Assembly (NCBI RefSeq): GCF_002262875.1
Contig: NZ_NKYE01000001.1
Coordinates: forward strand, 186,001 to 250,000
Source: Amycolatopsis antarctica
Lineage (GTDB): Bacteria; Actinomycetota; Actinomycetes; Mycobacteriales; Pseudonocardiaceae
DNA: 64,000 nt
Reading direction: 5' to 3'
Shown here: positions 6,899 to 62,339 of the stretch, one piece after another
Position numbering within the stretch: the first letter of the stretch is position 1
Layout: the number at the start of each line of letters is the position of its first letter
Made by a program: the position numbers and the translations under genes
Notes under the pieces: generated by a model
Seen by the model: only the letters and a program-made list of their open reading frames with translations
Told to the model about the DNA's origin: nothing
The model's database searches: none

Positions 6899-6936
6899 CG
6901 AGTGGCGGTCGCCCGATAGAGGGAAGCAGCCACTCG
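6899..6936. promoter_or_regulatory. Inverted repeat upstream of the S1 protease
   Basis: CGAGTGGC (6899-6906) and GCCACTCG (6929-6936) are perfect inverted 8-mers separated by 22 nt, 57 bp before the protease start. It could be an operator or a leader stem. No trans-acting partner is identifiable here. Confidence 0.35.
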
Positions 6937-6992
6937 CGGTATCGGAACGGCGTTACTCCGCGCCGGACCCCCTGCGAAAGTGAGTTGTCTCC

Positions 6993-8111: not shown

Positions 8112-8128
8112 TCCTGGCAACGACCGAC

Positions 8129-8164
8129 GGGCGCGTAACGGGGCCGCCACCCCGTTACGCGCCC
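8129..8164 (+). terminator. Perfect 15-bp hairpin terminator after the protease
   Basis: GGGCGCGTAACGGGG (8129-8143) is exactly complementary to 8150-8164, with the 6-nt loop CCGCCA. It separates the protease from hadA and lies just before the hadA -10 element. No T tract follows. Confidence 0.75.
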
Positions 8165-8183
8165 GCTGCCGTGAGTGGCCCGG

Positions 8184-8196
8184 TAACCTGTTCGGG
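8184..8196 (+). promoter_or_regulatory. -10 element for leaderless hadA
   Basis: TAACCT at 8184-8189 fits the actinobacterial TANNNT -10 consensus, and its last base is 7 nt before the GTG start of hadA. No ribosome-binding site precedes that GTG. This is the arrangement of leaderless transcripts, in which transcription starts at the first base of the start codon. Confidence 0.55.
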
Positions 8197-8645
8197 TGCC
8201 CTTGGATCCCGCATACGTAGGCCGGAGCTATCCGCCCTCGCCCGTGTTCGACGTCAGCCGCGGCAAGATCGCCGAGTTCGCCGACGCGATCGGTGACGGC
8301 AACGCGATCTACCGGGACGTGGACGCGGCACGCGCCGCCGGCCACCCGGACGTCATCGCACCGCCGACCTTCCTCACCATCATCAGCCTGGCCGCGGTGA
8401 ACACCATCGTCGAGGACCCGGCGCTGGGCCTGGACTACTCCCGGATGGTGCACGGCGACCAGCGGTTCGAGCACACCCGCCCGGTGCACGCCGGTGACCG
8501 GCTGACGCTCACCGCCCAGATCGAGGACGCGTTCACCAGGGCCGGTAACGACTTCCTGACCGTCCGCGCGGACATCGCCGACGCGGACGGTGCCCCCGTC
8601 GCGGTGGCCCGCGCCCAGCTCGTCGTCCGAGGAGAGTCCGAATGA
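8196..8645 (+). CDS. hadA: (3R)-hydroxyacyl-ACP dehydratase subunit HadA (MaoC-like)
   Basis: A 149-residue hot-dog-fold subunit of the heterodimeric 3-hydroxyacyl-ACP dehydratase of type II fatty-acid elongation. It matches the FAS1-type dehydratase N-terminal family (YPPSPVFDVSRGKIAEFADA, PPTFLTIIS, MVHGDQRFEHTRPVHAGDRL). In this family HadA is the substrate-binding partner and HadB carries the catalytic residues. GTG at 8196 has no ribosome site and is probably leaderless. The stop overlaps the hadB start by ATGA. In mycobacteria hadA-hadB-hadC precede trpT; here hadC is absent, in keeping with a genus that may lack mycolic acids. Confidence 0.92.
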   Translation: MPLDPAYVGRSYPPSPVFDVSRGKIAEFADAIGDGNAIYRDVDAARAAGHPDVIAPPTFLTIISLAAVNTIVEDPALGLDYSRMVHGDQRFEHTRPVHAGDRLTLTAQIEDAFTRAGNDFLTVRADIADADGAPVAVARAQLVVRGESE

Positions 8646-9049
8646 GCCCCGCCGTCGGCGACGAGCTGCCCCCGCTGCGCATCCAGGTCACCCGCGACCA
8701 GCTCGTCCGGTACGCCGGGGCCTCGCTGGACTTCAACCCCATTCACTGGAACGAGCGGTTCGCCGCCCAGGTCGGCCTGCCGGACGTGATCGCCCACGGC
8801 ATGCTCACCATGGCGCTCGCCGGCCGCGTGGTCACCGACTGGCTCGGCGACCCCGGCAGGCTCGTCGAGTACTTCGCCCGCTTCACCCGCCCCGTCGTCG
8901 TGCCGAACGACGCCGAGGGCGCGACGGTCGACTTCTCCGCCAAGATCGGTGAGCTGCGCGACGGGGGCCTCGCCCGGATCGACATCACCGCGAAGTTCGA
9001 CGGCAAGACGGTGCTGGGCAAGGCGCAGGCCGTCGTCCGGCTGCCGTAG
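8642..9049 (+). CDS. hadB: (3R)-hydroxyacyl-ACP dehydratase catalytic subunit HadB
   Basis: A 135-residue MaoC-type hydratase/dehydratase subunit. The hydratase-2 motif LDFNPIHWNERFA places the catalytic Asp at 30 and His at 35, followed by the conserved PDVIAHGMLTMAL. It partners HadA in removing water from 3-hydroxyacyl-ACP. The ATG overlaps the hadA stop (ATGA), so the two are translationally coupled and equimolar synthesis is likely. The downstream gene is convergent, 6 bp after the stop, so the operon ends here with no hadC. Confidence 0.93.
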   Translation: MSPAVGDELPPLRIQVTRDQLVRYAGASLDFNPIHWNERFAAQVGLPDVIAHGMLTMALAGRVVTDWLGDPGRLVEYFARFTRPVVVPNDAEGATVDFSAKIGELRDGGLARIDITAKFDGKTVLGKAQAVVRLP

Positions 9050-9055
9050 CGCGGT

Positions 9056-9961
9056 TCAGCCGACGACGCGCAGCACAGCGTCGGCCATCGCCTCGGACCC
9101 CTTCGCGTTGGGGTGCAGGCCGATGGCCTTCGACGTCGGGATGACGCCCTCGATCCAGCGGTCGCCGGAGTCGGTGCACAGGTCGTGGCCCTCGGTGGGC
9201 CGGGCCGTGTCCACGTAGCCCGCCTGCGCGGACGCGGCCACTTCGGCGAGCTTGCCGTTGAGCTGTTCGAGGATCCCGCGGAAGTAGTTCACGTCCCCCG
9301 AACCGATCGGCAGCGTCGGCCAGCAGCCGTCGCCGTCCGGCAGGATCGTCGGATAGCCGACGACCACCACACGGGCGTTCGGCGCCTTCGCCTTGACGTC
9401 GCCGATGGTGCCGTCCAGCCGATCGCCCGCCGTGTTGATCCGGTCCACCAGCTCGTCACCACCGCCCGCGGTGAAGCGGTCGCGGCACTTCGCCCCGTCC
9501 GGCCGCACCGAACCGCACTCCCCGGCCAGGCCGATCAGCCCGACGTCGTTGCCACCGATGCCGATGGTCACCAGCGTCGTCGCCTCGTTGACGGCATCGA
9601 GCTGTGGCGGGTTGGTGCCCTCGTCGGTCTCCTGCGCGGACTCCAGGTCCGCCGTGGTGGCCCCGCTGCAGCTCACGTCCACGAATTCGGCGGGCGAGAT
9701 GTCGGCGGCGACCAGGCTCGGGTAGTTGTTGTCGGAACGGTCGCAGCCCTCCGGCTGCCCGGCCCTGTTCCCGGTCCTCGGCGAGGAGGTGTACGAGTCG
9801 CCGAGCGCGACATAGCGCCCGGTGCCGTCACCGGTCACCGGCCCGGACGAGCCGGGGGGTTCGGCGGAGGAACCCTTCTGCGAGTCGTAGTAGGCGTAAC
9901 CCAGGATGCCGAGGACGAGGACGACGATGAGAAACCCGCCGCCTCCGCTCTTTTTCGCCAC
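9056..9961 (-). CDS. SGNH/GDSL-family hydrolase, membrane-anchored or secreted
   Basis: A 301-residue esterase/lipase-type hydrolase acting outside the membrane. After MAKKSGGGG comes one hydrophobic segment (residues 10-24), probably an uncleaved anchor, then a Ser/Pro/Gly linker and the SGNH domain from about 48. Block I is VALGDSYTSS with nucleophile S56, block III is GIGGNDVG (GGND 136-139), and block V is GLHPNAKG with His 283. Six cysteines (in GCDRSD, VSCSG, GECG, KCRD, GCWP, LCTDSG) suggest three disulfides, as in Streptomyces SGNH lipases. The gene is convergent with hadB. Substrate unknown. Confidence 0.87.
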   Translation of the reverse strand: MAKKSGGGGFLIVVLVLGILGYAYYDSQKGSSAEPPGSSGPVTGDGTGRYVALGDSYTSSPRTGNRAGQPEGCDRSDNNYPSLVAADISPAEFVDVSCSGATTADLESAQETDEGTNPPQLDAVNEATTLVTIGIGGNDVGLIGLAGECGSVRPDGAKCRDRFTAGGGDELVDRINTAGDRLDGTIGDVKAKAPNARVVVVGYPTILPDGDGCWPTLPIGSGDVNYFRGILEQLNGKLAEVAASAQAGYVDTARPTEGHDLCTDSGDRWIEGVIPTSKAIGLHPNAKGSEAMADAVLRVVG

Positions 9962-9989
9962 CAGGCATTTCTACGCGATATACGCCTGG

Positions 9990-11006
9990 TCAGCGAAGCG
10001 GCGATTCAGGTGACGTCGTGCCGGCGCGCAGCAGATCGTTGATCAGTCCCGCGGCGCCCGCCGGGTTGTCCACGCTGACCAGGAGCCGTTTCCCGTCGTC
10101 CAGGTTGAGCACCAGCGCCGGTCCGCCGCGCAGTTTGTAGGCGGTGTCGCCGGTGACCGGGTTGACCCGGATGCCGAGCCCGCCGTAGGAGAACGCACTG
10201 AGGGTGTCCACCTCCGCGCTGCTGATCCGCTCCAGCGGGACGTGCCGCCGCGCCAGCCCCGGCACGCCGAGCCGCACCGTGACCCCCGCCGCGTCCGCCG
10301 TCAGCGTCAGCCTGCCGAGCAGCACGCACACCACCAGGCAGACGGCGACCGGGATCAGCAGCACGGCCGCAGGGGGCGGAGTCGGGGCGAGGAACCAGAT
10401 CAGGGCGCTCGTCACGGCGACGGCCCCGGCGATCAGGTATCCGATCGAACTGGTGGTGCCGCCGGTCCACGCGGCACGCTCGCCCGTCCCGAGACCGACG
10501 GTCGGCTTGTCGGCCGTCAGCCCGCCACCGCGGACCGGAGCGCGGCCCGCCGGACCCGCGATCAGTGCGGCGAGCACCCCGGCGACCACGCTGCCCGCGA
10601 TGGCCAGCCCGATCGACAGCATCGGCGGGCTATCGGAGACGGCTCCGTCGAGGTTCGCGTGCAGCACGGCGATCAGCACGACGGCCGGGAAGGTGGCGAA
10701 TCCGGCGAGGTACCCGGCCGCACCCGTCACCGGCCTGCGGCCGCGGCGTAGCGCCACGACGGCCACGGCCGTGCCCGCGAGCGCGATCAGCACGGCGATG
10801 GCGAGTGCCCCGGCGACGAACGCCGTGGTGCCGGAGTAACCGTCGATCGTGCCGTTGCGCCAATGCGTGGCAAGCCGTTCGGGCAGCCGCCCGGACCAGG
10901 TCAGGTAGCAGGCGAACGCACCGGCGACGGCCAGCGCGGGCACGACGGTCGCGGCGAGAAGTGCTCTGGCCGCGCCGGGACGGGATGGCTGGGATCTCGT
11001 CGTCAT
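9990..11006 (-). CDS. Multi-pass membrane protein with DUF1648-like N-terminus
   Basis: A 338-residue integral membrane protein of unknown function. The first hydrophobic helix is followed by LPERLATHWRNGTIDGY, the pattern of DUF1648 proteins. Six membrane segments can be seen (about 15-35, 60-85, 98-118, 133-155, 190-208, 215-235). The soluble C-terminal third (RHVPLERISSAEVDTLSAFSYGG, ALVLNLDDGKRLLVSVDNP) resembles a PH-like membrane-associated domain. It overlaps the upstream GntR gene by 4 bp (ATGA), so regulator and membrane protein form a coupled two-gene operon, the usual arrangement of YtrA-type GntR regulators. Confidence 0.7.
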   Translation of the reverse strand: MTTRSQPSRPGAARALLAATVVPALAVAGAFACYLTWSGRLPERLATHWRNGTIDGYSGTTAFVAGALAIAVLIALAGTAVAVVALRRGRRPVTGAAGYLAGFATFPAVVLIAVLHANLDGAVSDSPPMLSIGLAIAGSVVAGVLAALIAGPAGRAPVRGGGLTADKPTVGLGTGERAAWTGGTTSSIGYLIAGAVAVTSALIWFLAPTPPPAAVLLIPVAVCLVVCVLLGRLTLTADAAGVTVRLGVPGLARRHVPLERISSAEVDTLSAFSYGGLGIRVNPVTGDTAYKLRGGPALVLNLDDGKRLLVSVDNPAGAAGLINDLLRAGTTSPESPLR

Positions 11007-11353
11007 GTGTACCTCTCCCTGATGGTGGTGGTGAGCTCGTCGACGCCGACGCCCTCGCGGCGCGCCTCGCCGATCAGCTCGCCGATGAGCTCGGCCAGCC
11101 TGGCCCGGTCGTTCGCGCCGCCGAGGACCACGGCGCCGCGGCGGCGCCGCAGGTCGATGAGGCCCTCGTCGCGCAGCAGCGCATACGCCCGCAGCACCGT
11201 GTGCACGTTGATCTCCAGCGATCCGGCGAGTTCCCGCGCGGCGGGCAGCGTGCTGCCCGGGCTGACCTCTCCGTCCGCCACGGCGCGGCGGACCGAGGCG
11301 GCCACCTGCTCGTAGAGCGGTGCGGTCGACGCCGGGTCGATGCGGATCAACAT
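11003..11353 (-). CDS. GntR-family regulator, YtrA type
   Basis: A 116-residue transcription regulator. Residues about 5-75 are a GntR winged helix-turn-helix (APLYEQVAASVRRAVADGEV, LPAARELAGSLEINVHTVLR, LRDEGLIDLRRRRGAVV). The short C-terminal tail (80-116, helical) replaces a ligand-binding domain, typical of the small YtrA subfamily. It is coupled by ATGA to the downstream membrane-protein gene. A strong inverted repeat starts at the first base of the start codon, so autorepression of the operon is likely. Ligand unknown. Confidence 0.88.
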   Translation of the reverse strand: MLIRIDPASTAPLYEQVAASVRRAVADGEVSPGSTLPAARELAGSLEINVHTVLRAYALLRDEGLIDLRRRRGAVVLGGANDRARLAELIGELIGEARREGVGVDELTTTIRERYT

Positions 11354-11375
11354 AGTTCTAACTGTACTAGAACTA
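11353..11375. promoter_or_regulatory. Inverted-repeat operator of the GntR regulator
   Basis: TAGTTCTA (11353-11360) and TAGAACTA (11368-11375) form a perfect 8-bp inverted repeat around a 7-bp spacer, immediately at the GntR start codon. A further GTTCTA half-site occurs at 11384-11389. The AT content stands out from the surroundings. It is the likely autoregulatory site. Confidence 0.7.
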
Positions 11376-11462
11376 ATGGCATTGTTCTACCGGCATCCGG
11401 GCAGGGCGAACCGCCGCACGTCTCGGCGGAGCGGGAGTCGAACGTGAACGGGGCCGGGCGGC

Positions 11463-12344
11463 TCAGCCGGTACGTACGGCCAGCGCGGCGGCGTACTCCA
11501 GTGCTGCGTCGACGCCGTCCGCGACGTAGTGCAGGTCGACGAAGACGTCCTCGGCACCGAGTTCGCGCACCGCGTCCAGGCGCCGCGCCAGCTCGGGCAC
11601 GGACGTGTCCGCCACGGGGTTGACGCGCACCACCCTGCGGACCGCGTCCGGATCACGGCCCGCCGACTCCGCCGCGGCCCGCACCAGATCCCACCGTTCG
11701 CGGAACAGCGGCGCTGGCAGCTCGACACCCAGCCAGCCGTCCGCGCGCCTGCCGACGCGCTCAAGCGCGCGCCGGGTGAACCCGCCGAGCAGCAGCGGCG
11801 GGCGCGGGCTCTGCGCCGGCCGAAGGTCCACAGTGGACTCCGGAATCCGCCAGTGCGGACCGTCGTGGGAGACCGGGTTGCTCGTCCACATCGCCGTCAG
11901 CACGTCCAGCAGCTCGTCCAGCCTGCGACCGCGTTCGGCCCAGGGGACACCGGCCGCCGTGTACTCGTCGCGCAGCCAGCTCAGCCCCAGCCCGACCTCC
12001 AGCCTGCCGCCGCTGAGCAGGTCGATCGAGGTCAGCGAGCGGGCAAGCAGCACCGGCGGATGCAGGGTGCCGGTGAGCGTGCTGGTGCCCAGCCGGGCAT
12101 CCGTCGTCGTCCCGGCGGCCGCGGTCAGCGTGACGAGGGGGTCGACGAAGCGGGTGAACTCCGGCGGGTAAGGACGGTCCGGCGTACCGCCCGGGTACAG
12201 GTCGCTCGGCCGGGTGGGTGTCAGGACGCGGTCGCCCGCCCACATCGAGCGGTAACCGAGCCCCTCCGCCACCGCCGCGAACTCGCCGATCCGCGCGGGA
12301 TCGGCGAGCGCGCCGTACTGCGGCAACGCGATACCCAGCCGCAT
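11463..12344 (-). CDS. LLM-class (luciferase-like) F420-type oxidoreductase
   Basis: A 293-residue TIM-barrel protein of the bacterial luciferase superfamily. Recognisable blocks are MRLGIALPQYGALADPARIG, YRSMWAGDRVL, LGTSTLTGTLHPPVLLARSL, LDLLSGGRLEVGLGLSW and RPPLLLGGFTRRALERVGRRADGW, which fit the F420-dependent branch common in actinobacteria. F420 rather than FMN use is inferred from family and taxon. The ORF is open to 12485, but the ATG at 12344 gives the family N-terminus. The aminotransferase stop lies only 4 bp upstream, so the two are probably co-transcribed, though no joint pathway is evident. Confidence 0.84.
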   Translation of the reverse strand: MRLGIALPQYGALADPARIGEFAAVAEGLGYRSMWAGDRVLTPTRPSDLYPGGTPDRPYPPEFTRFVDPLVTLTAAAGTTTDARLGTSTLTGTLHPPVLLARSLTSIDLLSGGRLEVGLGLSWLRDEYTAAGVPWAERGRRLDELLDVLTAMWTSNPVSHDGPHWRIPESTVDLRPAQSPRPPLLLGGFTRRALERVGRRADGWLGVELPAPLFRERWDLVRAAAESAGRDPDAVRRVVRVNPVADTSVPELARRLDAVRELGAEDVFVDLHYVADGVDAALEYAAALAVRTG

Positions 12345-12348
12345 CGCG

Positions 12349-13584
12349 TTACCGGGCCTCGCCCAGCAGCTTCGCCACGCGGGTGACGCCCTCGACGAGT
12401 TCGTCCTCGGCGAGCGCGTAGGAGAAGCGGAAGTAACCCGGCGTGCCGAACGCCTCGCCCGGCACCACCGCGACCTCGGCCTCACGCAGGATCAGGTCGG
12501 CCAGCTCGACCGTGTCGGCCGGACGTTCGCCACGAATCTCCTTGCCCAGCAAAGCCTTCACCGAGGGGTAGGCGTAGAAGGCGCCCTCCGGGGTCGGGCA
12601 CTCGACGCCGGGGATCGCCGACAGCAGCGACACGATCTTCTTGCGGCGCGCGTCGAAGGAGGCGCGCATCTCGTCCACGATGTCCAGCGGGCCGTCGACG
12701 GCGGCCAGGGCGGCGCGCTGCGAGACGTTCGCGACGTTGCCGCACAGGTGTGACTGGTAGCTCGACGCCGCCTTGATCACGTCCTTCGGTCCGATGATCC
12801 AGCCGACCCGCCAGCCCGTCATCGAGTACGTCTTGGCCACACCGTTGAGGATCAGCGTGGTGTCGGCCATCTCCGGCACCACGACCGGCAGCGACTCGGC
12901 CTTCGCGCCGTCGTAGACCAGATGCTCGTAGATCTCGTCGGTGATCACCCAGATGCCGTGCTCGTACGCCCACCGGCCGATCGCCTCGACCTGCTCGCGC
13001 GGGTAGACCGCGCCGGTCGGGTTGGACGGCGAGTTGAACAGCAGCACCTTCGTCTTCTCGGTGCGCGCGGCCTCGAGCTGCTCGACGGTGACCAGATACC
13101 CGGTGGACTCGTCCGCGGTGACCTGTACGGCGACGCCGCCTGCCAGCGCGATCGACTCCGGGTAGGTGGTCCAGTACGGCGCGAGCAGCAGCACCTCGTC
13201 GCCCGGGTCGACGATCGTCGCGAACGCGGAGTACACCGCCTGCTTGCCGCCGTTGGTCACCAGCACCTGACTCGGATCGACCTCGAGCCCGGAGTCGCGC
13301 CGCGTCTTGCGGGCCAGCGCCTCCTTCAGCTCCGGCAGTCCGCCCGCCGCGGTGTAGCCGTGGTTGGCCCGGTCCCGCACGGCGGCCGCAGCGGCATCGA
13401 CGACGTAATCGGGGGTGGGGAAGTCCGGCTGTCCGGCGCCGAAGCCGATCACCGGTCGGCCCCCGGCCTTGAGCGCCTTCGCCTTCGCGTCCACGGCGAG
13501 CGTCGCGGAGGGCTTGATCCCGGCGATGCGAGCGGAGACACGCGAGGTCGGACGAGTACTGGCGGAAGCTTCCGGAGTGGCCAT
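12349..13584 (-). CDS. aspC: Aspartate aminotransferase family enzyme (class I/II, PLP)
   Basis: Pyridoxal-phosphate enzyme of about 411 residues (1b-type aspartate aminotransferase), moving an amino group between aspartate and 2-oxoglutarate. Characteristic segments are [54 protein letters not shown] (contains the PLP-contacting Asn), [12 protein letters not shown] (PLP ring Asp/Tyr) and [16 protein letters not shown], with the Schiff-base lysine in [10 protein letters not shown]. Near the C-terminus YFRFSYAL provides the substrate-carboxylate Arg. The ATG at 13584 is the preferred start; ATG at 13593 is possible. It lies just before trpT, as aspC does near secE in some actinobacteria. Confidence 0.9.
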
Positions 13585-13789
13585 GGCCAGCATTTTTTCA
13601 CGGGCACCGAATGGCCGCGCGCGTGGCCCCGGAGCGTCCACCCGGGCGCGGTTGCGGGGGTCGTCACGGCTTGCCGTAGACTTCCGAACTTGGAACGTCG
13701 GACCCTCGGCCCAGCGCCAGACAGTGTCAGGTGTCGGGACGGTGGAAGGCGTCCAGTGAGCGGTAATCCTTTCGGGGTGAACCGGTCGA

Positions 13790-13862
<73 letters not shown>

Positions 13863-13970
13863 CGTCGACGTGAGAAGACGGCGAATGGCCCGCGAACCGC
13901 GGGTCATCCGAGGCGAGCAGCGGGTCGCGATCAGCGGCAGTTGTGCTAATGGGAGCAGCGAGGAGTGGCT

Positions 13971-14405
13971 GTGAGCGAGGACGGCGAGAAGGACCAGGAG
14001 AAGGAGCCCAAGCGCCCTTCCCGTCCGGTCACCGCCGCGGCCCGGCGTGAGCGCCGGGCCTCCGCACGGCCGGCCGCGGGTAAGGCTGCCGGCTCGGATG
14101 CCGACGAGGCCAGCAAGCGCCCCGCGAAGAAGGACAAGGCCGCAGCCGCCAAGGCGAAGGCCGACGGGAAGGACAAGCCGACCCCGAAGCGGGACAGCAA
14201 GGACAAGAAGGCGTCCCTGTTCGCCCGCATCGGCCGGTTCGTCCGCGAGGTGTGGGCCGAACTGCGCAAGGTCATCTGGCCGACGCGCAAGCAGATGGTC
14301 ACCTACACCTCCGTCGTGCTGGTCTTCGTGGCCTTCATGATCGGCCTGGTGGCCGTGCTGGACCTCGTGTTCCTCAAGGGCATGGACTTCGTCTTCGGCA
14401 ACTGA
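13971..14405 (+). CDS. secE: Preprotein translocase subunit SecE
   Basis: Small essential subunit of the SecYEG channel in the plasma membrane. The C-terminal 60 residues are SecE: FARIGRFVREVWAELRKVIW, then PTRKQMVTYTSVVLVFVAFM and one membrane helix (VVLVFVAFMIGLVAVLDLVF). The N-terminal 75 residues are a highly charged Lys/Ala/Glu-rich tail, typical of actinobacterial SecE. GTG at 13971 has AGGAG five bases upstream; GTG at 13965 is an alternative. It is followed by nusG, as in nearly all bacteria. Confidence 0.94.
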   Translation: MSEDGEKDQEKEPKRPSRPVTAAARRERRASARPAAGKAAGSDADEASKRPAKKDKAAAAKAKADGKDKPTPKRDSKDKKASLFARIGRFVREVWAELRKVIWPTRKQMVTYTSVVLVFVAFMIGLVAVLDLVFLKGMDFVFGN

Positions 14406-15467
<1,062 letters not shown>

Positions 15468-15542
15468 CGGCCGCGTACGGCCGGCAGTCCCCGTGCCTGC
15501 GCCGCAGGTGCGCGGGGGACGCAAGACTGAATAGGAACTGAA

Positions 15543-15974
15543 ATGCCACCCAAGAAGAAGAAGCTCGCAGCGATCATCAAGCTGCAGATCAAGGCGGGTG
15601 CCGCCAACCCGGCACCGCCGGTCGGCCCGGCGCTGGGTCAGCACGGCGTCAACATCATGGAGTTCTGCAAGGCCTACAACGCCGCGACCGAGTCGCAGCG
15701 CGGTGACGTGGTGCCGGTCGAGATCTCCGTGTTCGAGGACCGTTCGTTCGACTTCAAGCTCAAGACGCCGCCGGCAGCGAGGCTGCTGCTCAAGGCCGCG
15801 GGCGTGGAGAAGGGCTCCGGCGAGCCGCACAAGACCAAGGTCGCCAAGGTCACCTGGGCCCAGGTCCACGAGATCGCCGAGACCAAGAAGTCGGACCTCA
15901 ACGCGCACGACGCCGACCAGGCCGCCAAGATCATCGCCGGCACCGCCCGCTCCATGGGCATCACCGTCGTCTGA
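15543..15974 (+). CDS. rplK: 50S ribosomal protein L11
   Basis: A 143-residue protein of the GTPase-associated centre, contacting 23S rRNA and the elongation factors. [20 protein letters not shown] is followed by [20 protein letters not shown]; the proline-rich loop that forms the thiostrepton site is intact. The C-terminal RNA-binding domain ends ARSMGITVV. It starts with ATG and precedes rplA. Confidence 0.98.
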
Positions 15975-51107: not shown

Positions 51108-51128
51108 ACACCGACAGCAGTCGGCAAC

Positions 51129-51161
51129 GAGGGCCCCGGGCGCACAGCGTCCGGGGCCCTC
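51129..51161 (+). terminator. Terminator hairpin after rpoC
   Basis: GAGGGCCCCGG (51129-51139) and CCGGGGCCCTC (51151-51161) form a perfect 11-bp stem around an 11-nt loop, 21 bp after the rpoC stop. No T tract. Confidence 0.78.
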
Positions 51162-51180
51162 GTGCGTCCGGCCTCACCAC

Positions 51181-51207
51181 CGAGCGCGTTTAGCGGGCTG
51201 AATGTCG
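51181..51207 (+). repeat. Palindromic intergenic repeat, copy 2
   Basis: CGAGCGCG then TTTAGC-GG-GCTGAA then TGTCG. It is identical to copy 1 (25205-25231, minus strand) except for one A-to-G change that turns an A-T pair into a G-T pair and so keeps the stem in RNA. Confidence 0.8.
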
Positions 51208-51290
51208 TACCGCGCCGTCCAGCGTTGCCGTGCGGCGCCCAGGCCGTCGACGTCGCCCCGCGTGCCGTGGTGGGCCTCCGGGAAGCCCGG

Positions 51291-51317
51291 CGAGTGCGTT
51301 TAGCGGGCTAAATGTCG
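51291..51317 (+). repeat. Palindromic intergenic repeat, copy 3
   Basis: CGAGTGCG then TTTAGC-GG-GCTAAA then TGTCG. One base differs from copy 1, outside the stem. Confidence 0.8.
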
Positions 51318-51440
51318 TCCGGGCTCGATCGGCAGGCACTCTCCACCCGTCCCTGCCTCGTTCGGTGGTCGACCGAGGCGCTCCGGCGAGCGCAGCGTCT
51401 CGGTTCCGGCCGGCTTCGATCGGTGCCCGCGGGCGTCCCG

Positions 51441-51467
51441 GAAGCGCCTTTAGCGGGCTGAATGTCG
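51441..51467 (+). repeat. Palindromic intergenic repeat, copy 4
   Basis: GAAGCGCC then TTTAGC-GG-GCTGAA then TGTCG. The core palindrome is kept (with the same A-to-G change as copy 2); differences lie in the 5' flank. Confidence 0.75.
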
Positions 51468-52445
51468 TGCCGGGGGCGGGGGCGTCCGGGTAGGGAGCCG
51501 TGGTGGTCAGGGCGGGGAGTGGCGAGGATCGAACCAGCGGGTAACCTTCTCGATAGTAGGTAGCGCGGATTCGGTAGGAATGGCCGAAACGGTGCGAAAC
51601 GTTCGCGGACGGGCGCTACTCCATTCGGAACGACGCCCGGAAACGAATCCGGCAGATGTCCGCGTGCCCGTGGTCGATCATGATCAGTTCGTTCACTGCC
51701 GAACGTGCAATTGTTGCGCGACTTCGGACAATCGGGTGTTTTCGACGTAGTCGGGAACCAGTAATAATCGTGCCGAACCTGCCTTCTAATGGCGGTACAG
51801 ATTCTCGATACGCATTCTTGGCGACGGCGGCACCATACGCCCAGGCTTGCCCGCGCGGTCCCGGCCGGCGAACCGCCACCGATACCGGTACGGGCGCCAC
51901 GGGCCCACCGCGCCGACTCCGCAGGCAGCGCTGGTAGGTCGCCGATACGAGGTGAATGGAACCTCAAGCGACGGTCAATTCCCCGCGAACGGAACCGCCC
52001 GAACCCCGGCTGGAACAGTACGTTCAGCGCCACGGATTACGCCATTCGGCCGCGCGAATTCGTGAGCAATGCGTACATGCGTGAACGCACACCGCTACAT
52101 TTGACGTGCTCAGTCATTAACCGACCGCATGGTGGGGCTTTAAGTGAGCCGTTAATGTCGTGGCACGCCCATCAGGCTGGTTTTAGCCTGACTGAGGGGC
52201 TTGGGGCAATTCAGGCTGAAGCACTGGGGAAATTCTAGCTACGCCGTTGAACCATTGAAATCGAACGGATCGCAGTTTCAGGCGGGCCAGCTTGAAACCG
52301 TACTGCATTCCCGTTCGGTTCCGTTCTCATGGGCGACGACTGCCGGAGGCGTTCCGCGTGCGCCAGTTCTCGCACCCGTAGCACCGATGCGAGAAAGCGG
52401 GAACCGGGCCGATCGCCGGGTCCCGCCGAACGAAGGGGCATGCGT

Positions 52446-52455
52446 CGTGATCACG
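52446..52455. promoter_or_regulatory. Palindrome upstream of the ArsR-like gene
   Basis: CGTGATCACG is a perfect 10-bp palindrome 55 bp before the ArsR-like start codon. It is a possible autoregulatory site; this is a position-based guess. Confidence 0.3.
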
Positions 52456-52510
52456 CGAGCCCTCCGTCGTGCTGCGTCATTTCCGGCACTGAGCAGTAAG
52501 GGACCAACCG

Positions 52511-53434
52511 GTGCAGAACATGCAGAGGATCCACTTCACCAGTGACGACCTGGCCCGGACGCGGGTCGTTCCGACCTTGGGCCGCACCGTCGAGACACTG
52601 TTCGCCCTCGAACTGCTCGCCAACGGCGCGGGCGGCACCCTTTTCCAGCAGTGGCGCAAGGCGGTGCACAGCAGGCTCGGCAAGCGCGTCCAGTCGCTGG
52701 CCCCCGCCGACCAGCAGGTCCGTCCGTTCCCCGAACTTCTGTTGCTCGGCAAGCAGACGGCCAAGATCGACGCCCTGCTGCAGGACGGCAACTTCGCCAG
52801 CGAACGGTCCGCGCTCGCCGTCCGCGACTTCTACCGCGTCGCGCTGGCCCCGTACTGGAAGCGGATGCACCAGCACCTCGAGACCGAACGCGAGATCCGC
52901 GGCCGCATCGTGCTCTCCGGCGGAATCGAACGACTGCTGGCCACCCTGCATCCCCGGATGAAGTGGGAGCCGCCCTACCTGTTGGTACCGAGCGAACGTT
53001 CGGAGGACGTCGTACTGGGCGGCAGGGGACTGGTGCTCGCCCCCTCGCTGTTCCTCAGCGGCTGCCCCCGCACCATCGCGAATCCCGGCGGCGACTTCGG
53101 TACCCCGGCACTGGTCTACCCCGCGCCGCCGGACCGTTCGCAGACCGACGCCCTGTGGAACGTCGCCGCTGCCGAGGACCGCTCGCTCGGCGCCCTCGTC
53201 GGCCGCACCCGCGCCGCCATGCTCGAAGCGCTCACCGACAGCCGCGCGTCGATCGAGCTCAGCAGGCTTCTGGAGATATCGTCCGCCGCCGTCAGCCAGC
53301 ACACGTCTATCCTGCGCAACGCCGGGCTGATCCGATCGCAGCGCAACGTCAACACCGTCTTCCACACCCTCACCCCGCTCGGCGTCGCACTGCTCCGCGG
53401 CTACCAGCAGGAGCGCAGACTCGCGGCATCGTGA
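52511..53434 (+). CDS. ArsR-like winged-helix regulator (large, N-terminally extended)
   Basis: A 307-residue regulator of the group with a long N-terminal domain and an ArsR-type winged helix at the C-terminus (about 235-300: GRTRAAMLEALTDSRASIEL, SRLLEISSAAVSQHTSILRN, AGLIRSQRNVNTVFHTLTPL-G). The N-terminal domain (LEVETLFALELLAN-like ETLFALELLANGAGG, RVALAPYWKRMHQHLE) is common to actinomycete ArsR/DUF5937 regulators. GTG at 52511 follows TAAGGGA. The stop overlaps the thioesterase start (GTGA), which implies a shared role. Confidence 0.82.
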   Translation: MQNMQRIHFTSDDLARTRVVPTLGRTVETLFALELLANGAGGTLFQQWRKAVHSRLGKRVQSLAPADQQVRPFPELLLLGKQTAKIDALLQDGNFASERSALAVRDFYRVALAPYWKRMHQHLETEREIRGRIVLSGGIERLLATLHPRMKWEPPYLLVPSERSEDVVLGGRGLVLAPSLFLSGCPRTIANPGGDFGTPALVYPAPPDRSQTDALWNVAAAEDRSLGALVGRTRAAMLEALTDSRASIELSRLLEISSAAVSQHTSILRNAGLIRSQRNVNTVFHTLTPLGVALLRGYQQERRLAAS

Positions 53435-54210
53435 CCGATCGCCGCCGCAGCGAAAGAGACACCACCATCGACGCAACGAACACGACCCAGCGCTGGCTAC
53501 GTGGCTACGCGGGCGACACGACGTCACCGCGCCGGCTCGTCTGCTTCCCGTACGCGGGCGGAACCGCGCAGGGTTTCCGGCCGTGGGCGAAGTACCTGCC
53601 CGCCGATGTGCACCTGCTCGCGGTGCAGTACCCGGGGCGCCAGGACCGCATCGACGACGCGTGCCTCGTCCAGATGGACGAGCTCGTCGAGCAGGTCATG
53701 GAGGCCCTGCGCCCGCTCGCCGACCGCCCGTTGACCCTCTTCGGACACAGCATGGGCGCCTCCGTCGCGTACGAGGTCGCCGTGCGGCTGGAACGGGAGA
53801 ACGCCGACCTCGCCACCCTCCACGTCTCCGGTCACGGCCCGCCGCACCTGCAGGCCCCAGGCGACCTGCACCGCCGTGGCGACGCCGCGATCCTGGACGA
53901 CGTCCGGCGGCTCAATCCGGCGGCCACGGAGGTGCTGGCGGACCCGGACGTTCTCGATTTCGTGCTGCCCGCCATCCGTGCCGACTACGAACTGGTGGAG
54001 ACCTACCGCCGCGCCGAACCGCCGCGGCTGTCCGTGCCGATCGTCGCCTACGGCGGCACCGAGGACCCGGTCGTCGACGAACAGGGCCTGCGTGGCTGGG
54101 AAAGCCTCACCAGCGGCCCGTTCGAGCAGCGCATGTTCCCGGGGGCGCACTTCTTCCTCCTGCAGGACGAACGGACGGTGGTCACCGACCTCGCCGGCCG
54201 GATGGGCTGA
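53431..54210 (+). CDS. Type II thioesterase (RifR/GrsT family), orphan
   Basis: A 259-residue alpha/beta hydrolase that removes misprimed or stalled acyl groups from carrier proteins of polyketide synthases and peptide synthetases. RLVCFPYAGGTAQGFRPWAK opens the domain; nucleophile S107 lies in FGHSMGA, Asp 212 in GGTEDP, and His 240 in PGAHFFLL. GTG at 53431 overlaps the regulator stop (GTGA). No synthase is in the window, so it serves a distant cluster or acts as a general housekeeper. A terminator follows. Confidence 0.9.
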   Translation: MTDRRRSERDTTIDATNTTQRWLRGYAGDTTSPRRLVCFPYAGGTAQGFRPWAKYLPADVHLLAVQYPGRQDRIDDACLVQMDELVEQVMEALRPLADRPLTLFGHSMGASVAYEVAVRLERENADLATLHVSGHGPPHLQAPGDLHRRGDAAILDDVRRLNPAATEVLADPDVLDFVLPAIRADYELVETYRRAEPPRLSVPIVAYGGTEDPVVDEQGLRGWESLTSGPFEQRMFPGAHFFLLQDERTVVTDLAGRMG

Positions 54211-54227
54211 CCCGCCGCGAACCGGGG

Positions 54228-54275
54228 CCCGGACCGCGCGAGCATCAGTGCTGGGCGCTGCTCACGCGGTCCGGG
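54228..54275. terminator. Terminator hairpin after the thioesterase
   Basis: CCCGGACCGCG (54228-54238) and CGCGGTCCGGG (54265-54275) form a perfect 11-bp stem with an internal AGCA / TGCT extension. No T tract. Confidence 0.7.
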
Positions 54276-54483
54276 CGTGGAGCGCGTCACCCGCGGCTGG
54301 GGTCCGGTTCGGGTGGCGCGCCGACCTCGAGGAGCTGGGAATCCCCGACGTCCTGCACCCAGCGTATGGACGCCCATCGGCGCCGACCATCCAGCGAGGC
54401 CCCGGCCCGGGGTAGAGCTGACTGCCCTACCGCGGTCGCCTCCGGTCGAGGTGGTGCGCTGAAAGCCTTGCGTCCCAGGCGAA

Positions 54484-55305
54484 TCAGCCGGACGCCGTCG
54501 CCTCGACGCCGATCCGGTCGAGCAGTGCCGCGAGAGCGTCCAGCCTGCCCGGCAGGGTTTCCGCCGCCACCGGTTTCCCGTCCACCGCGTAGAAGTAACC
54601 GTGGTCGAAGGCCAGCAGGCACTGCAGGTCCGTCTTGTTCTCCACCAGCCAGCGCAAGGTCGACGGGGTCAGTACCCGGGCGGCGAACGCCGGATCCTCG
54701 GTGTACGCGACCACGTGCGCCCCGATCTCCTCCGGCAGCTCGACCTCCTGCCAGGACGAGGCCGAGGGCACCGGCTCGCGCAGCTCCAGATCGAACGCGC
54801 TCTGCCGCGGATCCCTTACTCGGCCCGGAAATCCGAGCGCACGGATGACGGCCGGATCCAGCACCGGTGCCAGCTTCAACCCAGGGGTCGTGCCGGTCCG
54901 CGTCTCCACGATGTGCTCGACGTCCTCGTAGGCGGAGTTATGCGGGCCCGACCTGAGAATCGACCCCTCGCACACCCGCAGCCGCCACCTGCCGTGAGGA
55001 ATCTCCGCGGCGAAGCGGAACTCCGGCTCGCGATGGGGAACCCGGAGCGAGCCGAGGAAGCCCGAGTGGTGGTAGAGATGCAGAAACGGACGCCTGCGCC
55101 CGGCTGAGCCCGGCCACGACCGGGCCGGATCCGCGGTGAATTCGCCGCCGAGCCGCTCGGTCAGCAACCGGACCCTTTCCCGGCGGACCGCCTCGCCCCC
55201 GCGCTTGCGCCTGCGCGCCCGGACGAGGAAGAACGCGGGAATCCCGAACACCACCGAGAGCAGCAGGCCGAAGCGGATGAAGATCTCTACCGTGTCGCTG
55301 TCCAC
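54484..55305 (-). CDS. Hypothetical membrane-anchored protein of the ESX-type cassette
   Basis: A 273-residue protein: one N-terminal helix (IFIRFGLLLSVVFGIPAFFL), a basic stretch, then a soluble domain of about 225 residues (FLHLYHHSGFLGSLRVPHRE, PVLDPAVIRALGFPGRV, NKTDLQCLLAFDHGYFYAVD). No family recognised. It is the last gene of a four-gene operon after a YbaB-like protein, an EspC-like substrate and a WXG protein, 30 bp after the WXG stop. An immunity or chaperone role is possible but unproven. Confidence 0.6.
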   Translation of the reverse strand: MDSDTVEIFIRFGLLLSVVFGIPAFFLVRARRRKRGGEAVRRERVRLLTERLGGEFTADPARSWPGSAGRRRPFLHLYHHSGFLGSLRVPHREPEFRFAAEIPHGRWRLRVCEGSILRSGPHNSAYEDVEHIVETRTGTTPGLKLAPVLDPAVIRALGFPGRVRDPRQSAFDLELREPVPSASSWQEVELPEEIGAHVVAYTEDPAFAARVLTPSTLRWLVENKTDLQCLLAFDHGYFYAVDGKPVAAETLPGRLDALAALLDRIGVEATASG

Positions 55306-55335
55306 TGATTCCTTCCGGTGCCGTGCACGCCGGCG

Positions 55336-56397
55336 TCAGAAGTCGAGCTTGTCCTTGGTCTCGTCCACGGACTGACCGTCGCCGGTGGCCGCGTACTCGC
55401 CGGCCTTGCGTGCGTTTTCCAGGTGCCCCATGGGCTTGCCGGGCATCACCGGCGGGCCTACTGCCGGGTCGGTGCCGATGCCGATCTGCGATTTCGCCTG
55501 ATCCGTGACGACGCCGGCCATCCGCGAGCCGAAACCGTCGTTGATCCGGCCGGCCATACCGGGCAGCGCCTGACCGTTCGTGCCCATCTTCGCGATGATG
55601 TCCTTGGTCTTGCCGAAGATGACCTTGAATTGGTCGATCAGCTCCTTGATCTGGTCGAGCACCTTCTGCAGCTTGCTCACCTGCTTGGTGGCCTTCGTCG
55701 CGGTGCCCGCGGCCTTCGCCGGCGTCGCCGCTCCCGCCGCCGCCGTCGAGGCCCCGGCCGTCGGAATCGCCGCCGCCAGAGCCGGCACCCAGATCATGAT
55801 CAGCCAGGTGATCAGCTCGGTCAGCAGGGCCTTGATGAACTCCTCGATGACGGTCATCAGCATGCTGCACGCCTGCAGCAGCGTCGCGATGTCACCGGCC
55901 TGGTCGGCGGTCCCGGTGATCCCGCCGGAGAACTCGGCCAGCCTGCCCGCGGCGGCCTCGGCCGCACCGCCCTCCCACTGCGCGAGCGAATTCTGCGCCT
56001 GCTCGTTGAACTGCGCGGCGAACTGCTCCATCCCGCGGCCGATGTTGTTGAAGCTCTCCGCCGCCGCGGCGAGAGCCGGCCCGTCACCGCTGACGAAGTG
56101 GATCGCGTCCTGCAGCGGGTCGCACACCGCGAGCAGGAAGTTCAGTCCCTGGCCGACGAGCCAGCCGATCGGGTCCGTGGCGATGCTCATCGCCGTCTCC
56201 GCGCAGGACTGGATCAGGTTCGTCGTCTCGGACATCACGCCGCTCAGCCCGGTGGCCGTCGAGCCCTCCTTGATGGCCTGGCTCGTGCCCGCGTCGTACA
56301 CCTTCACGGCGCTGCCGACGATCGGGATCGCGTTGACGACCTTCTTCCCGGTGCCGTCCTCCTGCTTGAGCGCGATGTCGCCCAGCGGATCGCTCAT
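55336..56397 (-). CDS. WXG-like type VII secretion protein
   Basis: A 353-residue protein. Helices flank the turn QWEGGAAEAAAGRLAEF (W-E-G near residues 140-145), as in WXG100-type substrates, preceded by ESFNNIGRGMEQFAAQFNEQ. One or two membrane-like segments follow (LITWLIMIWVPALAAAIPTA), then a coiled region (LQKVLDQIKELIDQFKVIFG) and a soluble C-terminus. No toxin motif is visible. It lies between the EspC-like gene and a membrane protein in the same operon. Confidence 0.7.
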   Translation of the reverse strand: MSDPLGDIALKQEDGTGKKVVNAIPIVGSAVKVYDAGTSQAIKEGSTATGLSGVMSETTNLIQSCAETAMSIATDPIGWLVGQGLNFLLAVCDPLQDAIHFVSGDGPALAAAAESFNNIGRGMEQFAAQFNEQAQNSLAQWEGGAAEAAAGRLAEFSGGITGTADQAGDIATLLQACSMLMTVIEEFIKALLTELITWLIMIWVPALAAAIPTAGASTAAAGAATPAKAAGTATKATKQVSKLQKVLDQIKELIDQFKVIFGKTKDIIAKMGTNGQALPGMAGRINDGFGSRMAGVVTDQAKSQIGIGTDPAVGPPVMPGKPMGHLENARKAGEYAATGDGQSVDETKDKLDF

Positions 56398-56422
56398 GTC
56401 CGTGCCCCTCGCTCGTTCTCGT

Positions 56423-56758
56423 TCACCTGGGAGCGTCGCCGCTGTTCTCCAGCTGCCCCATCACTTCGTTCCAGTTGCGGCAGTTGTCGTTCTCGGTGCT
56501 GTCGTAGAACTCGCCGGCCGTGCGGACCTTGTCCGAGGCGGACTGCAGGCCGTCCTCCATCTGCTTGAGCAGATCGTTCAGGTCGCCGAGCATGTCGGTG
56601 TACATGTGCTTGACGAAGATGCCGACGATGCCCCAGGACTCGTCGCCGACGTCCGCCTGGCCGACCTTGTCCTTGACGCCCGCCACCGCGGTCTTGTTCT
56701 CGGCGAGCAGGTCCGAGTAGGCGTACAGCCTCGAGGTGTCGACCTGGTAGCCGCCCAT
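56423..56758 (-). CDS. EspC/DUF2580-like ESX substrate
   Basis: A 111-residue helical-hairpin protein. YQVDTSRLYAYSDLLAENKT is typical of EspC/DUF2580; the turn reads ESWGIVG and the second helix ends in EFYDSTEND, giving the type VII export signal YxxxE (YDSTE). Likely exported by an ESX system encoded elsewhere. ATG at 56758 overlaps the YbaB-like stop (ATGA). Confidence 0.78.
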   Translation of the reverse strand: MGGYQVDTSRLYAYSDLLAENKTAVAGVKDKVGQADVGDESWGIVGIFVKHMYTDMLGDLNDLLKQMEDGLQSASDKVRTAGEFYDSTENDNCRNWNEVMGQLENSGDAPR

Positions 56759-57324
56759 CAGTGATCCCCTCGGTCGTCGAACAGGTTCTTCAGGAACTCA
56801 TCGCCCTGCGAACCACCCGTCGCGGGTGGCGGCGCCGGTGCGTCCTCGGCCCGTGCCATGAACGATTGCGCCGAGTAGTCCTCGGGTTCGCCCTCGTTCA
56901 CCGCCCGCCGCGGCGTCTCCTGCTCCACCTTCGACCGCAGTTCCTCGACGCTGGTTCCCAGCACTTCGGCCTGGGTCTCGAGGACCTGCTCGGTGAGACC
57001 GAGGCTGCCACCCATGTGCTGGTCGACGACCACCGCCTGTTTCCGTGCCGATTCGGCCACCGCTTCCCGCAGGGTGGCCATCAGGGTGTTCGCGAGCGCG
57101 CGGCCGTCCTGCCGCATCGCGCCGTCGGCGATACGGATGTCCGTGACGGAGCCGCCCGGCCCGGCGACGACGGTCACCGTCCGGTCCGGTGAGGTCGCCG
57201 TGGCCTCGAGCGCACCGATCTCGGCCTGCATCTGGCCGATGCTGGCGAACTGATCGTCCACCCGCTGGATCTTCGACTGGAACCGCTCGAACTGTGCGAC
57301 GAGCCGCTCGAACTCCGCTGACAC
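56758..57324 (-). CDS. YbaB/EbfC-like nucleoid-associated protein
   Basis: A 188-residue protein with a YbaB/EbfC domain over residues 1-105 (ERFQSKIQRVDDQFASIGQM, TVTVVAGPGGSVTDIRIADG, QDGRALANTLMATLREAVAE) and an acidic extension. Such longer YbaB paralogues sit at the head of ESX substrate operons in actinomycetes. The partner is unknown. GTG at 57324 follows GAGGAGGAAG. Confidence 0.78.
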   Translation of the reverse strand: MSAEFERLVAQFERFQSKIQRVDDQFASIGQMQAEIGALEATATSPDRTVTVVAGPGGSVTDIRIADGAMRQDGRALANTLMATLREAVAESARKQAVVVDQHMGGSLGLTEQVLETQAEVLGTSVEELRSKVEQETPRRAVNEGEPEDYSAQSFMARAEDAPAPPPATGGSQGDEFLKNLFDDRGDH

Positions 57325-57482
57325 GCTTCCTCCTCGGCGTCGCCGCCTGAACTGGTGGTTTCCCGGTGCGAGTGAACATCATGGACGATCGGTACCCGTT
57401 CCGTGCGCACCTCGGTCGAGATGCCCCCGATCAGGCCGGTACCGTGCCTCCCCGGTTCACCAAGCGGTACGAGGAGGGCGTT

Positions 57483-57644
57483 GTGGACACCGACAGGACC
57501 ACCGTCACGGACGGCCCGACGGGTGAGGAGGTGAGCACCGGGCGCCGCGCGGCACCCGAGGGCGCGCCGGTCCACCCGCTGATCGACCTCTCGCGGGATC
57601 CGAATCCCGGTCGTCCCAATCACGCGAAGGCCGACGAGGACTGA
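57483..57644 (+). CDS. Small hypothetical protein
   Basis: A 53-residue ORF (VDTDRTTVTDGPTGEEVSTG, then HPLIDLSRDPNPGRPNHAK). GTG at 57483 follows GAGGAGGG, which favours translation; the frame is open upstream to 57366. Acidic and polar, with no recognised family. It is divergent from the YbaB-like gene. Confidence 0.4.
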   Translation: MDTDRTTVTDGPTGEEVSTGRRAAPEGAPVHPLIDLSRDPNPGRPNHAKADED

Positions 57645-57771
57645 CCCGACCGGGCTCTGACCAGGCGGAACGTGGGGCGCGGGTGTGTAAGGCACCCGCA
57701 CCTCCGCGTTGCCGCCACCTGTGCTTCGGGACGGGGTAAGGTGGCGGTTCGGTCGTCTTCAGACCCCCCAA

Positions 57772-57800
57772 TTGGCCGCCTTCCGGGCGGCGGGTATCTT
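57772..57800 (+). promoter_or_regulatory. str operon (rpsL) promoter
   Basis: TTGGCC (57772-57777), 17-bp spacer, TATCTT (57795-57800). Transcription would begin near 57807, about 210 nt before the rpsL start. Confidence 0.62.
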
Positions 57801-57947
57801 TGACGACCGTGCCCGGCAGGCGTCGGGCCGCTCCGCGTGCCATTCGGTAAAGGTGGGGTACTTCGGTATCCAGCTGACGTCCGGTGCGAAGCGGAGTTCC
57901 ACGGATATCCCGCTGGGAAAGTTACCGGGTCGCGTAGATCTAGACGC

Positions 57948-57976
57948 GGCGCGACACGCCCGACCGCGGGGGCCGG
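57948..57976 (+). promoter_or_regulatory. Leader motif shared by rpsL and rpsJ, copy A
   Basis: GGCGCGACACGCCCGACCGC followed by GGGGGCCGG. It agrees with 62663-62691 at 27 of 29 positions, the first 21 without change. It ends 39 bp before the rpsL start. Confidence 0.7.
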
Positions 57977-58015
57977 GGAAATACGACAAGCAATACGCGA
58001 CAGAAAGCTGGTCCA

Positions 58016-58923: not shown

Positions 58924-61023
<2,100 letters not shown>

Positions 61024-61145: not shown

Positions 61146-62339
61146 GTGGCGAAGGCGAAGTTCGAGCGGAGCAAGCCGCACGTCAACATCGGAACCATTG
61201 GTCACGTCGACCACGGGAAGACCACCCTGACCGCGGCGATCACCAAGGTTCTGCACGACAAGTACCCGGAGCTCAACCAGTCGCGGGCGTTCGACCAGAT
61301 CGACAACGCGCCGGAAGAGAAGCAGCGCGGCATCACGATCAACATCTCGCACGTCGAGTACGAGACCGAGGCGCGTCACTACGCGCACGTTGACGCTCCT
61401 GGTCACGCTGACTACATCAAGAACATGATCACCGGTGCGGCCCAGATGGACGGTGCGATCCTCGTGGTCGCGGCGACCGACGGCCCGATGCCGCAGACGC
61501 GTGAGCACGTGCTGCTCGCCCGTCAGGTCGGTGTGCCCTACATCGTCGTGGCGCTGAACAAGTCCGACATGGTCGACGACGAGGAGATCCTGGAGCTCGT
61601 TGAGCTCGAGGTTCGCGAACTGCTCTCCGAGCAGGAGTTCCCCGGCGACGACGCTCCGGTCGTCAAGGTCTCCGGCCTCAAGGCCCTGGAGGGCGACGAG
61701 GAGTGGGGCAAGTCGGTTCTCGAGCTCATGGAGGCCGTGGACGCCAACGTCCCCGAGCCCATCCGGGAGACCGAGAAGCCGTTCCTCATGCCCGTCGAGG
61801 ACGTCTTCACCATCACCGGTCGCGGTACGGTCGTCACCGGCCGCATCGAGCGTGGCGAGGTCAAGCTCAACGAAGAGGTCGAGATCGTGGGCATCCGCCC
61901 CGACGCTCGCAAGACCACGGTCACCAGCATCGAGATGTTCAACAAGCTGCTTGACTCGGGCAAGGCCGGCGACAACGCCGCGCTGCTGCTCCGCGGTATC
62001 AAGCGCGAGGACGTCGAGCGTGGCCAGGTCGTCGTGAAGCCGGGCACCACCACCCCGCACACGGAGTTCGAGGGCTCGGTCTACATCCTGTCCAAGGACG
62101 AGGGCGGACGGCACACGCCGTTCTTCAACAACTACCGCCCGCAGTTCTACTTCCGTACCACGGACGTGACCGGCGTCGTGACCCTCCCCGAGGGCACCGA
62201 AATGGTCATGCCGGGCGACAACACCGACATCTCGGTGACGCTGATCCAGCCGATCGCCATGGACGAGGGCCTTCGCTTCGCCATCCGTGAGGGTGGACGG
62301 ACCGTCGGTGCCGGCCAGGTCACCAAGATCAACAAGTAG
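61146..62339 (+). CDS. tuf: Elongation factor Tu, with unusual residues in the GE2270A pocket
   Basis: A 397-residue GTPase that carries aminoacyl-tRNA to the ribosome. P-loop GHVDHGKT (19-26), DAPGHADY and NKSDM are normal. Domain II reads [20 protein letters not shown] followed by [12 protein letters not shown]. Aligned with E. coli ([20 protein letters not shown], then VGVLLRG), Ser 261 is at G257, Asn 266 at R262, Ala 278 at V274 and Ala 279 at G275 (mature E. coli numbering). In E. coli, G257S and G275A were described as GE2270A-resistance changes. The kirromycin positions G316 and A375 are unchanged. GTG at 61146 follows CAGGAGGA. It is the last gene of the str operon, closed by a terminator. 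Confidence 0.97.

Follow-up and report, generated by a model that had tools for sequence, protein, structure and literature searches.

A four-residue variant of the GE2270A pocket in the only EF-Tu of Amycolatopsis antarctica, one of two pocket forms found in its family

Introduction

Single substitutions G257S or G275A reportedly make the elongation factor Tu (EF-Tu) of Escherichia coli resistant to the thiopeptide GE2270A. The strongest GE2270A contacts in the structure of the E. coli complex are twelve residues, given in the review PMC8183687 as D216, G222, R223, T256, G257, E259, F261, R262, N273, V274, G275, and L277. Two reviews differ on the site itself, which is placed in the second domain of EF-Tu in PMC8183687 and between domains I and III in PMC7136475; the residue list of the former is adopted here. 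PMC7136475 also describes partial overlap of the GE2270A and pulvomycin sites.

Natural resistance has been described in two forms. In Planobispora rosea the housekeeping-type tuf gene (Pros_0822, tufR) is reported to encode a GE2270-insensitive EF-Tu, for which four point mutations are hypothesised to matter (PMC4514598, PMC12309360). The pbt cluster of P. rosea has rpoC upstream and tuf and ribosomal genes downstream, with tuf a short distance away (PMC3943966). Putting the P. rosea gene in place of tuf1 in Streptomyces coelicolor gave a strain that resisted 20 mg/L or more but whose growth was severely impaired, and EF-Tu3 of S. coelicolor and S. ramocissimus is likewise GE2270A-resistant (both PMC12309360).

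The tuf gene of Amycolatopsis antarctica described here is, like tufR, of housekeeping type; it carries four changes in the GE2270A pocket. No cluster of the pbt kind was found near tuf in this genome, whereas tuf of P. rosea lies near one. EF-Tu3 is a second gene expressed under stress; here there is a single tuf. The E. coli laboratory mutants G257S and G275A are altered singly at two of the same positions, whereas a set of four residues is changed here.

Results

The tuf gene and its pocket

The window, that is, the whole stretch of 64,000 nucleotides that was analysed, corresponds to bases 186001-250000 of contig C14 in a genome of 6.34 Mb and 64 contigs (features in Table 1). Translation of tuf, between fusA and rpsJ, gives a 397-residue, full-length EF-Tu (TIGR00485, 715 bits; cut-off 522). 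A whole-genome search recovered no other EF-Tu, the five further matches sharing 28-34% identity. A second tuf gene, which the earlier note had proposed to look for, is absent from the assembly, as is a divergent copy of the EF-Tu3 type. A second EF-Tu (61-63% identity) is carried by 19 of the 80 members of the genus (g1), this genome being without it.

Table 1. Coordinates of the features discussed, as positions of the window unless a contig is named
Feature	Position	Strand	Remarks
tuf	61146..62339	+	Sole EF-Tu gene of the genome; GTG start; gene order rpsL-rpsG-fusA-tuf-rpsJ
Probable mosaic stretch within tuf (largely domain II)	61727..62021	+	Outer limits with donor G434 and three of four genus partners
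Ser257 codon AGC	61926..61928	+	Gly in the 35 other genus members read
Asn262 codon AAC	61941..61943	+	Arg in the 35 other genus members read
Ala274-Ala275 codons GCC GCG	61977..61982	+	Val-Gly in the 35 other genus members read
fusA (EF-G)	58924..61023	+	Among the 16 neighbours placing the genome in its genus
rpoC-rpsL gap	51108..58015		Where Planobispora rosea carries its GE2270 cluster
RiPP cluster (L010)	C49:305000-324999, about 5354-15765	-	YcaO, ocin-ThiF-like protein, SagB-type dehydrogenase, others

In E. coli numbering the protein has S257, N262, A274, and A275, as the earlier note had claimed; translation and alignment with the EF-Tu of Serratia marcescens (L109) bear this out. The Serratia protein, 393 residues without Met and with G/R/V/G at 257/262/274/275, served as the numbering reference. 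Counted with the initiator Met, the residues are 261, 266, 278, and 279, with codons beginning at 61926, 61941, 61977, and 61980. Eight further positions are associated with resistance to kirromycin, enacyloxin, and pulvomycin; in the alignment seven of them (124, 230, 316, 329, 333, 334, and 375) match Serratia, and the eighth, 160, differs (Y to Q). Relative to the twelve contacts listed in PMC8183687, exactly four are changed (257, 262, 274, and 275) and eight are kept. The pocket comprising S257, I258, N262, A274, and A275, here called S-type, is complete in this housekeeping EF-Tu; that with G257, R262, V274, and G275 is called G-type.

Distribution in genus, family, and beyond

All 35 other members of the genus that were read (7 plus 28, out of 79) are G-type, the remaining 44 of the 80 members being without letter-level reading. 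The allele is thereby ruled out as a fixed trait of the family. A wider survey used a pattern, S257 plus N or K at 262, that reads residues 254-263 only and recovers 38 of 38 known cases; it assumes codons ending in G or C and so misses low-GC genomes. Of the 297 genomes sampled from the family, 80 match the pattern, and they are spread over 18 of 46 genera, which rules out a private oddity of this genome. In the genus itself it matches this genome alone among 26 sampled, the other 25 giving no match. Both pocket kinds are held, by the same pattern, within g1 (1/26 S-type), g2 (3/16), g5 (19/24), and g79 (16/24). The 29 family loci nearest to this domain II, own genome excluded, are all S/N/A/A at the four positions and belong to g3, g9, g73, g81, g82, g84, g85, g92, and g95. 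The two pockets are thus a dimorphism, standing alternatives within the family. The earlier note had allowed that the same residues might prove standard across drug-sensitive Pseudonocardiales; they are indeed common in the family, but not in the genus of this organism. No description of a family-wide EF-Tu pocket dimorphism was found in the literature searched, in which subscription journals are thinly covered.

In wider samples the pattern matches five of 394 genomes from the class (this one, G027, G1045, G1203, and G1195) and, with its bias towards high-GC codons, one of 396 from the phylum, namely this one. The same four residues occur in G1045 and G1203 (class family f103) and in Spongiactinospora sp. 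TRM90649 (L070; Streptosporangiaceae), where domain II is otherwise like that of Nonomuraea and Thermocatellispora. In G1195 (f20) the set is preceded immediately by a one-residue insertion and the pocket segment equals that of the g81 genome G437, so that a small transfer is possible there. The Ser codon is AGC in this genome, g9, and g81 and TCG in g3, g5, and g79, a difference that hints at more than one origin or at long separation.

Another change at the same site was also seen. A257, with R262, V274, and G275 kept, occurs in five genomes of family f15, in Frigoribacterium, and in Dactylosporangium (L166, L207, L208, L210, L211, L058, and L076).

Coupling of the residues

Across 250 distinct EF-Tu genes that were read, S257 occurs in 65 and A275 in the identical 65, neither being found alone, though frequencies in this set are biased because it was gathered partly by similarity and partly by the pattern. 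Forty of the 65 are S/N/A/A, 24 are S/K/A/A, and one is S/R/V/A (G004, family f5). The set was obtained from 252 loci, after omission of the repeats L261, L284, L285, L332, L339, and L351 and of the ten-base placeholder L199, by merging two pairs of identical DNA (L060/L151 and L066/L152). In the order set, S257 is present in nine of 89 genes and A275 in the same nine. This set is non-random, 30 genes being the best matches to this EF-Tu and the rest chosen by hand; of its 200 genomes, 35 had no EF-Tu match at E 1e-150, and of the 165 that did, 88 were read (89 genes) and 77 left out. A274 and A275 are present in all 29 family loci read from among the 80 pattern matches, own genome apart, and in all three new class loci found by the pattern (L308, L310, and L311). 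Because the pattern covers only 254-263, the coupling is not produced by it.

The view of the earlier note that drift is a poor explanation holds up: four drug contacts are changed, the changes occur jointly in everything read, and the set recurs in Streptosporangiaceae-like carriers on a local domain II. A hypergeometric test for fixed differences at contact sites (p 7e-6) was discarded, the groups having been defined by those same residues.

Probable mosaic structure of tuf

A tree of 16 neighbour proteins (3022 columns, 20 genomes) places the genome in its genus with support 99/98, at a position at the base of the genus that is not resolved; in that tree union with the S-type group is not strictly rejected (AU p 0.064). 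The EF-Tu tree groups the genome with S-type alleles (100/99) and rejects placement in the genus (AU p 0.0004). The seven tuf genes of the genus in the tree cluster with a G-type allele of g7. A tree built from DNA at the fusA end and at the ends of tuf joins the genome to S-type genomes (97), does not reject the genus (p 0.33), and does not cleanly show a mosaic.

Within the gene, the best DNA identity to tuf in the genus is 0.928 in the 5' part, 0.808 in codons 201-280, and 0.954 in the 3' part, against 0.923, 0.917, and 0.934 for the best S-type gene. At third positions, codons 201-240 have a mean identity of 0.56 to the genus and codons 241-280 one of 0.74, the flanks having 0.77 (5') and 0.83 (3'); to the main S-type group the two blocks of codons have 0.71 and 0.75, and the flanks 0.74 and 0.79. 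The value of 0.56 is lower than the 0.70 between the genus and other S-type alleles at silent sites. The silent contrast sits in codons 201-240 and not in codons 241-280, where the four residues are.

Triplet tests with donor G434 gave an observed value reached by 0-2 of 400 shuffles for four of four genus partners, both at all sites and at third positions. With three of these partners the tract begins at about nt 579-603 of tuf and ends at 843-873; with partner G226 its start moves to about 61268 (nt 120-237). At third positions, and with no correction for multiple tests, other donors gave 1-38 of 400 (G437 and G174) and 12-228 of 400 (G435). A domain II like that of another genus, together with gene ends and neighbours that lean to the own genus, suggests intragenic recombination, though some of these results run against it, and an exchange is likely as judged from these sequence comparisons. 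The direction may be either into this lineage or, instead, a switch in the rest of the genus.

The gene at 10924-11214 of L287, probably rpsQ, has 90-94% identity to g81 against 77-90% to the seven genus members compared. This runs counter to most other neighbours and perhaps records another exchange.

Thiopeptide-related genes in this genome

The earlier note had suggested that the organism may make, or live beside makers of, a GE2270-type thiopeptide. The genome gives no support for production: the candidate pyridine synthase falls far below cut-off, no core peptide was found by script, and no such cluster was found in the gap between rpoC and rpsL. Whole-genome searches for YcaO, PF14028, and PF04738 gave no match in that gap. 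Of six ORFs profiled in it, two matched nothing; the others are an ArsR-like and a YbaB-like protein, a thioesterase, and a WXG100-like protein that falls just short of its cut-off. The ArsR-type regulator (52511-53434) overlaps the lone thioesterase (53425-54210; PF00975, 172 bits), the pair occupying 52511-54210 on the plus strand.

The cluster on contig C49 (Table 1) also encodes a dehydratase N-domain protein, an F420-dependent oxidoreductase, and one SpaB_C protein, and so has the YcaO cyclodehydratase, ThiF-like partner, dehydrogenase, and dehydratase expected of a thiopeptide cluster. The SpaB_C protein passes TIGR03891 ('thiopeptide-type bacteriocin biosynthesis'; 84 against 48 bits). 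Its best NCBIfam match is the TbtD/PbtD family (NF045556), at 103-104 bits against a cut-off of 325, and is partial, covering positions 2-276 of 354. By BLAST it matches the TbtC-like protein of G1045 at 83 bits; against the PbtD-type protein of G1045 there was no match at 1e-3, and those of G150 and G083 reach only 52 and 37 bits. No core peptide with a Cys/Ser-rich core was recognised by script near the cluster, a search that would miss an unusual core. A crude core-peptide scan gave one small ORF in the region L012 and further ORFs that looked off-frame on inspection. The C49 cluster was not accepted as a thiopeptide cluster, given 104 bits against 325 for a pyridine synthase and BLAST similarity closer to the TbtC-like protein; its product would be expected to be a linear azole/dehydroamino-acid peptide rather than a thiopeptide.

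In L012 (C4:110000-129999; 8296-12375, minus strand) a second azole cluster has a fused leader-binding/YcaO protein and a SagB protein, with no match to PF04738 or PF14028. A small upstream ORF ends NWCNPENLTSVCSCTWSRLDEVAA, and a SARP-type regulator adjoins the cluster. At C14:594113-597043, on the same contig as the window, lies a full-length class I lanthipeptide dehydratase (PF04738, 551 bits; PF14028, 176 bits).

Pocket and pyridine synthase in other genomes

Outside the order four S-type genomes were found. Two of them, G1045 (492 bits) and the Spongiactinospora genome G1278 (435 bits), encode a pyridine synthase that exceeds the NF045556 cut-off; G1203 and G1195 are S-type without one. 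Over the order sample one genome in 200 (G133) has a pyridine synthase over cut-off, a figure that is not a matched control for two of four, and its EF-Tu is G-type despite that enzyme. The S/R/V/A genome G004 has a bare NF045556 match (E 9.6e-4). Among the family genomes tested, any match to this profile was found in four of 34 with the S-type pocket (this one, G083, G150, and G434) and two of 21 with the G-type (G162 and G192), all under cut-off, and because of this the pocket is not the mark of a producer in the family. The four pocket residues of Spongiactinospora sp. TRM90649 (L070) and G1045 are identical to those of this EF-Tu, but those genomes have a PbtD/TbtD-type pyridine synthase over cut-off, whereas the best match here is partial and far under it.

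In Spongiactinospora sp. TRM90649, five short ORFs lie in a row, some overlapping, at 2142-3274 (minus strand) of L320 (G1278:C36:172000-185000). They have thiopeptide-like leaders and poly-cysteine tails (e.g. CSCCVACCCCC) and are about 10 kb from the PbtD-type pyridine synthase. G133 (L198, L168, and L321) combines a pyridine synthase over cut-off and a thiopeptide-like precursor with an ordinary EF-Tu pocket, and its product may, given that pocket, not target EF-Tu.

Discussion

Resistance of this EF-Tu to 29-membered thiopeptides, meaning those of the GE2270, amythiamicin, and thiomuracin type, is the most economical reading of the pocket and is held here with fair confidence, as a reading of sequence. 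The side chains gained at 257 and 275, together with the arginine lost at 262, would weaken binding of these compounds, while aminoacyl-tRNA binding would be preserved. The explanation favoured on balance, with moderate confidence, is broader: a resistant-type S-type pocket with weaker thiopeptide binding that was gained by homologous exchange, probably with a relative near genus g81 or g9, and kept by bystander exposure. The S-type pocket may be kept since soil actinomycetes meet such compounds, not for the sake of a self-made product, and bystander exposure would explain its spread better than self-protection does.

Self-protection of a producer, in which the organism would make a GE2270/amythiamicin-type thiopeptide and be shielded by its own EF-Tu as in Planobispora rosea, is very improbable. 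It could draw on two genomes in which this pocket and a PbtD-type pyridine synthase occur together, and on the C49 cluster, where YcaO, ocin-ThiF-like, SagB-type, dehydratase N-domain, and SpaB_C proteins are found together, the last over the TIGR03891 cut-off and with TbtD/PbtD as its best NCBIfam family. Yet that family match spans only part of the profile (2-276 of 354) far under cut-off, the protein is nearer to the TbtC-like (83 bits, G1045) than to the PbtD-type sequence (no match at 1e-3), and the script found no core peptide. It is hardly more probable that the changes protect against a different ligand that binds there, for instance pulvomycin or a novel EF-Tu-targeting molecule: the positions associated with resistance to pulvomycin (230, 333, and 334) and kirromycin (124, 316, 329, and 375) are as in Serratia, with Y to Q at 160. 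The partial overlap of the GE2270A and pulvomycin sites (PMC7136475) is in its favour. A neutral or compensatory lineage trait, in which the aminoacyl-end pocket could be packed equally well in two ways and the four residues would be one of these, unrelated to antibiotics, is unlikely, if less so than either of these. The commonness of the S-type form in the family (80/297), the 25 of 26 family carriers tested that lack a pyridine-synthase match, and the complete coupling expected of epistatic packing all agree with it. The changed sites, however, are drug contacts, and the set is met again in Streptosporangiaceae-like carriers and in f20 (G1195), as well as partly (S/R/V/A) in f5, possibly by non-independent origins; only this genome among 396 phylum-wide has the pattern, which favours high-GC codons.

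The exchange itself has an alternative that is somewhat doubtful, in which no recombination took place: the genome would be basal in its genus, with an ancestral S-type pocket retained, and the other members would have switched to the G-type or regained it. Its unresolved position at the genus base, flank DNA that does not separate the cases, the lack of contrast at silent sites of codons 241-280, and the grouping of the seven genus tuf genes in the tree with the g7 G-type allele fit such a history. It is at odds with silent identity to the genus, which is 0.77/0.83 for the flanks but 0.56 for codons 201-240, under the 0.70 between the genus and other S-type alleles, and with the bounded tract given by the triplet tests with donor G434.

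Returning to homologous exchange, a tentative extension, possible though short of probable, is that the EF-Tu pocket is a long-lived two-allele system in which a complete resistant-type and a complete sensitive-type form occur across genera and are swapped by short intragenic recombination. Both forms may persist because a resistant EF-Tu may cost growth. No half-converted pockets have been seen in the family, and on this view an essential translation factor would record thiopeptide exposure. That the residues are coupled all or nothing suggests strong epistasis around the aminoacyl-end pocket. Were the S-type pocket resistant, target-site resistance to EF-Tu thiopeptides would already be common in soil actinobacteria that give no sign of making them, and would probably be exchangeable by homologous recombination. 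The S-type pocket could then serve as a cheap genome marker for meeting or making such compounds, and the cost of a resistant EF-Tu would become a natural experiment within single genera.
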